From: Bacteroidota bacterium
Lineage (GTDB): Bacteria > Bacteroidota > Bacteroidia > Chitinophagales > Chitinophagaceae
DNA length: 33,030 bases
NCBI GenBank assembly: GCA_005882975.1
Contig: VBAS01000047.1
Span: 1 to 33,030 of the forward strand
Direction: 5' to 3'
Within the stretch, counting starts at the first letter, position 1; each line of letters opens with the position of its first letter. Both the position numbers and the translations under genes were made by a program. Below are positions 11,292 through 32,682 of this stretch, one piece after another. Under the pieces are notes generated by a model. It saw only the letters and a list, made by a program, of their open reading frames with translations, was not told the DNA's origin and did no database searches.

Positions 11292-11676
11292 CGCTGCAAA
11301 CCGTGCTATCGCTTCAGCGCTTCCAGTTGAGGAGGAAAGTCCGGACAGTACAGAGCAATGCACCCCGTGATAAGCGGGGGTACTTCAACCAATGCTGAAA
11401 AGTAAGTTGAAGTAACAGATAGTGCCACAGAAAATAACTACTTCGCTTCGGCGGAGAAAAGATGAAAATGTGGGGTAAGAGCCCACGGCTTTTGATCGTG
11501 ACATCATTTGCGGGTAAACCTTGCATGCTGAAATGCCACATATAGTATCGTTTGAGGGCTGCTCGTCCAAGATACAGGGTAGGCAGATTGATCCCGGTGA
11601 GTAATTACCGGGACAGATAAATGATAGCGGTCCCGATTTATCGGGATAACAGGATCCGGCTTACAAGTTTGCAGCG
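11292..11676 (+). ncRNA. rnpB: RNase P RNA (bacterial class A)
   Basis: Conserved GAGGAAAGTCCGGAC, ACAGATAAATGATAGC and ACAGGATCCGGCTTAC; terminal P1 stem CGCTGCAAAC (11292-11301) pairs with GTTTGCAGCG (11667-11676); followed by TTTTTTATTTTT. Confidence 0.95.
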
Positions 11677-11690
11677 TTTTTTATTTTTAA

Positions 11691-31448: not shown

Positions 31449-31569
31449 GCTGTTATTTTGCTTCGTTGTGGGCCATTGGGATAATTGCGCCCAACTCGCA
31501 GGTTTCTGCAAATTGTTGTTCCAAATCTAATTAAGAAAAGAACAATTGAGAAATGAAATCATGATAAAA

Positions 31570-31745
31570 AAGTGTCCCATAGGGACACTTGGTGGGTAGT
31601 AGTAAAAATCATCAAAATGTATCAGCGTTCCGTAGGAACGCATTGTGCTAAATTTTCGAATTTCGATTTGCACCAAACGTTCCGATGGAACGTTATGGCC
31701 ATTCACGATTGTTAAACTACCCATCAAATGTTCCTGCGGAACATT
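31570..31745. repeat. Composite palindrome: four spaced perfect hairpins in a larger symmetric inverted repeat
   Basis: AAGTGTCCC-ATA-GGGACACTT (31570-31590), GCGTTCC-GTA-GGAACGC (31625-31641), AACGTTCC-GAT-GGAACGTT (31676-31694), AATGTTCC-TGC-GGAACATT (31727-31745); TGGGTAGT (31593-31600) pairs with ACTACCCA (31716-31723). Confidence 0.9.
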
Positions 31746-31776
31746 CTTAGCAGTTACGTAATGTCATCTCGTTATT

Positions 31777-32460
31777 TTATTCTGCTGTCAACAATTGTTC
31801 AAAGAAAGCGCCAATATTATTTTTTCTATCTACAAAATGAAGTTCAAGCATCCAATGTCTTTTGTTTCCGTGTTTGTCTAATTGAAGAATATTAGTATGA
31901 TTATCCGGGTGTACATCTAAACAGAGATCATTAGGATCATCAGGTTGTTCATGAGGATAACGACCGAGAATATGACCAGCTATTGCATTTCCAAATTCAT
32001 AGCCATAACGTTTTGTAAGGTCGTTCACATAATTAAAATATCCGGCGCCAGTAAGATCGGTTTGTTTAAAATACCAGGCATTCGCTTCGTGCCATGCAGC
32101 TTCTACGTCTTTTTTTATTTTTAGTTTTAAAGGATCGTTACCTAAAACATATGTTCTTCCAAGATCTGCTTCCCAATCTTCAAAAACGGGATGAAAATCG
32201 AAGAACAAGATGTCACCCTTTTGTATAATAAGGTTTGGTGGATCTGCTATGTATGGTTGTAAGGTATTGATGCCTGTTCTTACAATTTTTTTGCCCCAAT
32301 GAATTTCTGTACCAAAATCTTCCTTGGCAATCTTTACTATTTCATCGGAGAGTTCTTTCTCAGATTTGCCGGCAACTATTGATCCTCTTTTTTCTACAGT
32401 GTCAAATAATTCTTTTGCTTTTTGTTCAGCAAGGATTAGTCTTTGTCTTGTTTCGTTCAT
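31777..32460 (-). CDS. M24 family metallopeptidase (aminopeptidase P/creatinase-like fold)
   Basis: GDILFFDFHPVFEDWEADLGRTYVLG, AIAGHILGRYPHE, NHTNILQLDKHGNKRHWMLELHFVD. Confidence 0.85.
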   Translation of the reverse strand: MNETRQRLILAEQKAKELFDTVEKRGSIVAGKSEKELSDEIVKIAKEDFGTEIHWGKKIVRTGINTLQPYIADPPNLIIQKGDILFFDFHPVFEDWEADLGRTYVLGNDPLKLKIKKDVEAAWHEANAWYFKQTDLTGAGYFNYVNDLTKRYGYEFGNAIAGHILGRYPHEQPDDPNDLCLDVHPDNHTNILQLDKHGNKRHWMLELHFVDRKNNIGAFFEQLLTAE

Positions 32461-32598
32461 AATTTTTTTATTAAATCAAAGGAAACTGTTTGAAATGACC
32501 ACTAACTACCGCTTTTCGCTGCTCGAACTTATAGCTTTGGAAATACAACAAGGTGAATAGAATTACAGAAAGTATAAGAGTGCCCTTCGTCTCGCTCT

Positions 32599-32631
32599 GG
32601 GTAAACTATGCAACGAAAGTTTAATAGTAGC
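32599..32631 (-). repeat. Dispersed intergenic repeat, copy C (minus orientation)
   Basis: The reverse complement reads GCTACTATTAAACTTTCGTTGC...AGTTTACCC, matching copies A and B. Confidence 0.75.
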
Positions 32632-32682
32632 AATGCAGATGGGCTCATAATAACCTTCAACTTTCAACTGGCAACTTTCAAC

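Follow-up and report, generated by a model that had tools for sequence, protein, structure and literature searches.

Hairpin repeats and their Y1 transposases

Insertion sequences of the IS200/IS605 group, among them IS608 and ISDra2, encode a HUH/Y1 transposase (TnpA) and carry hairpins at their ends; classical members have one imperfect hairpin per end, hairpins and guide tetranucleotides direct their excision and insertion as single strands, and non-autonomous forms are expected. In REP/BIME/REPIN systems, tagged palindromes are dispersed in inverted pairs, and in REPtrons a low-copy Y1 gene, the RAYT (TnpA-REP), is flanked by such repeats. In TIRtrons (Di Nocera et al. 2013, PMC3733652), a Y1 gene (TIRYT) lies between inverted repeats, some of them double-palindromic, and repeat copies occur elsewhere; TIRYTs retain the motifs that separate RAYTs from IS200 transposases. 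The Bacteroidota genera we searched for are absent from the main text of that paper. For subclass 1.2 of TnpA-Y1, Quentin et al. (2018, PMC6006769) list no REPs; they describe it as generally devoid of terminal IS200 structures and as not sharing the properties of insertion sequences.

Here we analyse a four-hairpin element in a stretch of 33,030 nucleotides (the window) from a Bacteroidota genome bin. Like the IS200/IS605 members it is associated with a homologous HUH/Y1 TnpA and has hairpins at its ends, but each of its ends, which are inverted repeats of one another, has two hairpins, and the TnpA belongs to subclass 1.2, whereas theirs belongs to 1.1. With REP/BIME/REPIN and RAYT systems it shares dispersed palindromes in inverted pairs, a GTAG-type tag and the REPtron trait of a low-copy Y1 gene flanked by repeats. 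It differs from them in its unit of four hairpins (~175 bp), in its tags, which follow the hairpin (GTAG 8 nt 3' and GGTG 3 nt 3') instead of forming the GT[AG]G at the hairpin 5' foot of REPs, and in its TnpA of class 1 (Y---Q--HH) rather than the RAYT class 2 (Y---NP). A Y1 gene flanked by inverted repeats with copies elsewhere also recalls TIRtrons, the RAYT-distinguishing motifs of TIRYTs being the difference. Motifs, protein length and Bacteroidota distribution agree with the 2018 account of subclass 1.2, from which the hairpin ends and gene-less derivatives found here depart.

Anatomy of the four-hairpin element

The element is intergenic, occupies positions 31570-31745 of the window and consists of two inverted halves, 31571-31648 on the plus strand and 31670-31745 on the minus strand, which match our half-element model R1 with 74.7 and 71.6 bits. 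The outer hairpin H1 (31570-31590; 9-bp stem, AAGTGTCCC-ATA-GGGACACTT) is followed by the left outer tag, the GGTGGGTAGTAG region (31591-31603, plus strand), in which GTAG lies 8 nt 3' of the 15-base core of H1. The inner hairpin H2 (31625-31641; 7-bp stem, GCGTTCC-GTA-GGAACGC) borders the centre (31642-31675), where the inner tags ATTGTGC and GCACCA enclose ~20 bp at the position that tnpA takes in autonomous copies. Beyond it lie the inner hairpin H3 (31676-31694; 8-bp stem, AACGTTCC-GAT-GGAACGTT), the right outer tag ACTACCCATC (31715-31724), which reads GATGGGTAGT on its minus strand, and the outer hairpin H4 (31727-31745; 8-bp stem, AATGTTCC-TGC-GGAACATT). The hairpins, the centre and the element as a whole have no strand assigned.

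An earlier sequence-only reading had described four perfect hairpins with 3-nt loops and stems of 9, 7, 8 and 8 bp, 51-53 bp apart, and these were found as described. The complementarity that it noted across the centre (GGTGGGTAGT/ACTACCCATC and GTGC/GCAC) is real, and arises because the two halves are inversely repeated, each running hairpin-GTAG-hairpin-GGTG. Its picture of hairpins nested in a larger inverted repeat holds for the two inverted halves, but the inner hairpins do not form separately in the minimum-energy fold of the single strand, where H2 and H3 pair with each other. An element made of two inverted two-hairpin ends, which enclose tnpA in the autonomous form, accounts for the regular spacing and the two-level symmetry.

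Perfect hairpins with a 3-nt loop and a stem of 7 bp or more number six in the window, and four of these belong to the element. First-order Markov simulations of the window (n = 200) gave a mean of 4.0 hairpins per window, and more than two within 170 bp occurred in 0/200. Both strands of the 201-nt region folded far better than shuffled sequences (z = -7.6 and -7.0; 0/200 shuffles as good). An Rfam search of the window matched RNase P alone (bacterial class A RNA at 11293-11679; RF00010, 209.7 bits) and left the element without a match.

Copies, size classes and consensus

A DNA search revealed relatives of the element in genomes of the same and of other genera, so that the multiple copies with conserved hairpins anticipated from the sequence were indeed present. 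Of 100 genomes sampled from the same family, 26 had matches to model R1, among them G008 and G036 with at least 47 halves apiece, G104 with 34, G117 with 23, G113 with 17, the window's own genome with eight and G033 with five. Across five genomes, 80 halves form 29 convergent pairs, the dispersed inverted pairs of palindromes that characterize REPs and REPINs, and these fall into three discrete sizes: 11 pairs of 115-126 bp with three hairpins, the inner one common to both halves; 16 pairs of 163-179 bp with four hairpins, the type of the window copy; and two pairs of 634-672 bp in which four hairpins enclose tnpA. Hairpins, tags and spacing are the same in tnpA-bearing and gene-less copies, the latter thus having, like a MITE, the ends of an autonomous element and no transposase gene. 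With dispersed copies, conserved hairpins and size classes, the proposal of a repeated, non-autonomous DNA element stands. Full copies in G104 have H1 to H4 in common, with flanks that are unrelated between subgroups and longer flanks common to some copies. G036 also has half-elements arranged tail-to-tail (minus then plus, ~79 bp apart; e.g. C607:21938-22092) instead of convergently.

Each half reads outer hairpin, GTAG, ~25 nt, inner hairpin, GGTG. The outer hairpin is mostly TGTYCC-NNN-GGRACA and the inner one mostly CGTTCC-NNN-GGAACG, and spacing between successive hairpins peaks at 47-54 bp. When all offsets were scanned in the loci fetched up to that stage, GTAG at offset 8 (n = 102) and GGTG at offset 3 (n = 42) stood out from the next commonest tag position (n = 11); the set used for the outer-hairpin consensus was selected for GGTAG at the tag position, and tag conservation there is by choice. 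The 15-base hairpins of the alignment were allowed at most one mismatch, which partly imposes their pairing. Pairing was not imposed on the flanking positions 57 and 73, which were G-C in 16 cases, A-U in 13, C-G in two, U-A in two and unpaired in 19; since this pair varies in a paired way, the stems covary. A compensatory change was also seen in H4, from TTCC/GGAA in the window to TCCC/GGGA in its orthologue on contig C324 of the same bin (GTCCC/GGGAC). A single copy, unconserved hairpins and stems without covariation, the outcomes that the sequence-only reading had named as speaking against it, were looked for and none occurred.

Linkage to a subclass 1.2 transposase

Genes with the PF01797 domain directly adjoin the element in G002 and G033, and several loci have the order H1-H2-tnpA-H3-H4 with the same tags as gene-less copies. 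The associated TnpA is ~153 aa long and carries the signature of subclass 1.2 (DH[IV]H, WQ and Y---Q--HH in ~150 aa); with a slightly loosened pattern, DHuH, WQ and Y---Q--HH were all present in 119 of 124 proteins. Profile matches to solved transposases (ISDra2 TnpA, E = 3.8e-10; IS608 TnpA, E = 2.2e-4) confirm the homology to the HUH/Y1 enzymes of IS200/IS605. The RAYT motif Y---NP was found in 0/124 associated proteins, and a class-2 RAYT was therefore rejected as the partner. Of the proposed REP/REPIN-like element mobilised by a RAYT, the REP likeness and the association with a Y1 gene survive, while the transposase is a TnpA-Y1 of subclass 1.2; likewise, the gene expected to be flanked by the same hairpins exists as a Y1 gene and is not a RAYT.

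Linkage was assessed on 80 relatives of the G002/G033-type TnpA from named records, nearly all from Bacteroidota (Pedobacter, Flavobacterium, Algoriphagus, Dyadobacter, Mucilaginibacter and others), with Rhodohalobacter and other Balneolaceae also among the hosts. Perfect hairpins reached 2.70/kb within 500 bp of these genes versus 0.196/kb beyond 700 bp, a 14-fold enrichment across Bacteroidota. As the protein signature is that of subclass 1.2, we take this enrichment as a revision of the 2018 description of genes without REPs and generally without terminal hairpins. Where a genome had a close tnpA (E ≤ 1e-60), the element was present in 11 of 12 cases, versus 15 of 88 for the other genomes (Fisher p = 5.5e-7), in a census of mostly independent genomes with a model built partly from tnpA-adjoining loci. 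Four genomes (G008, G036, G107 and G122) have several to many copies and no close tnpA, which counts against a mobile element; in G036 the at least 47 halves occur with no close full-length gene. The contig that carries tnpA in the window's own bin breaks off 37 bp upstream of the gene, which hides any flanking hairpins from view.

Related TnpA proteins tend to share a hairpin type: on the TnpA tree the type changes 29 times, versus 57 when shuffled (0/200), a contrast inflated by near-copies on a tree with mostly weakly supported deep branches. Other TnpA clades are flanked by other hairpins, of GCTCC or ACTCC type or with 4-nt loops. A more distant Y1 clade with IHxVWATK proteins (L030, L031, L032, L043, L050) has single hairpins on both sides, with stems of 8 bp or longer and 4-nt loops of the TTTA, TTCA and TTAA types.

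REPtron-like domestication has been proposed for RAYTs and REPINs, and tnpA could similarly have become fixed as a host gene, serving to maintain or spread the hairpin repeats while itself staying immobile at a locus simply flanked by them. The low copy number of tnpA, which counts against a mobile element, agrees with such a role, as do the tandem arrays at some loci and the complete four-hairpin element on one side of tnpA only in G002 and G033. Several genomes, however, place tnpA exactly between the halves, in the fashion of an insertion sequence, and we hold domestication to be a serious but minority possibility.

The prfB locus and neighbouring repeats

The right end of the window is prfB (release factor 2, with the in-frame stop present). 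Contigs C256 and C324 of the bin G000 each carry prfB, 99% alike at the amino-acid level, and C324, which gives the bin's best second match to the element, has it at 87%. The prfB pair suggests that the assembly, which is fragmented and has an estimated contamination of 6.3%, mixes two closely related strains, and the C324 copy is probably the orthologous prfB-upstream locus of the second strain. A transposed paralogue was rejected, as the C324 copy again lies upstream of prfB. At the orthologous locus of G003, from the same genus, the left and right blocks adjoin with no hairpin element between them; this junction was read by eye, MAFFT having misplaced the right-hand block, and is not base-precise. 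The difference fits an insertion in the window lineage or a loss in G003. The prfB loci of G002, G004 and G005, also of this genus, have no such element, and their upstream regions are too different for empty sites to be recognized.

Strong folding of both strands, the intergenic position and retention at the C324 locus would suit a structured RNA, a multi-site protein-binding array or a terminator array with a host function, to which the tnpA link is secondary. Dispersal into unrelated contexts, discrete size classes, tnpA linkage across genera, the lack of an Rfam match and palindromes that read identically on both strands make this improbable. Ordinary recombination might instead have spread sites for a host protein, with TnpA uninvolved, which would suit the tandem arrays and those genomes that have copies but no close tnpA, but hairpin enrichment at tnpA, co-occurrence of element and tnpA, and a hairpin type that follows the TnpA tree render this very improbable indeed.

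The surroundings of the element differ between the two contigs. Right after H4 the window has ~800 bp (31746-32555) that C324 lacks, including a peptidase gene of the M24 family; the gene beyond a short repeat, block A, differs as well. Block A (31490-31540; ACTCGC..TTGTTCCAAATTTAATTAA..GGAACAA) is itself an inverted repeat and was also seen near gene starts in L015, L016, L018 and L019; G033 has three of its copies inside 9 kb. It looks faintly like an integron attC half, but an attC reading of this flanking ACTCGC/TTGTTCC block was set aside, no second arm being seen by eye.

A second repeat, block B (GAATAGAATT...GTACAAGTGTGCGACGCAACAG...AGTAGCAATGCAGTTGGGC), is an independent, abundant intergenic repeat, found at 32545-32640 of the window, at C2:331240-331300 in G033 and in many other places. 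By pattern match, the left edge of block B (GAATAGAATT...GCGACGCAACAG) lies 22-23 nt outside the outer hairpin in five element copies from G000, G001 and G033, and further copies with this arrangement were noted by eye. G033 has at least 35 other copies of block B, in most of which similarity begins near the same edge, and G000 has many. The simplest reading is that the element prefers this edge as a target, although the element and block B may instead have spread jointly.

A probable gene-less single-strand DNA transposon

Because tnpA occupies the place of its ~20-bp centre in other copies, the window element is best read as non-autonomous, and we consider it likely that it is a MITE-like, presumably mobile, copy of a single-strand DNA transposon. 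Autonomous copies would read H1-H2-tnpA-H3-H4; the window copy, lacking tnpA, would have kept both two-hairpin ends, joined by ~20 bp, possibly after an internal deletion. Exposure of the region as a single strand, for instance on the lagging-strand template, would let the hairpins fold and a subclass 1.2 TnpA-Y1 supplied in trans bind them. The GTAG and GGTG tags may serve TnpA in positioning cleavage, after which it would excise or copy the element and join it to a new site, perhaps next to certain genomic repeats.

On balance, we lean towards a family of single-strand DNA transposons in Bacteroidota that had not been recognised before. Its members would have a subclass 1.2 TnpA between two inverted ends of two hairpins each, and its gene-less derivatives, with four or three hairpins, would spread in trans with a preference for the edge of another genomic repeat. 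In the text of the open-access papers searched, we found no earlier description of the element. The four-hairpin element is a candidate DNA partner for subclass 1.2, which had been reported as partnerless. With a conserved candidate substrate across many Bacteroidota genera, the activity of this subclass becomes directly testable. The element is intermediate between IS200-type elements and REP systems, and it would account for a class of palindromic repeats in Bacteroidota genomes.
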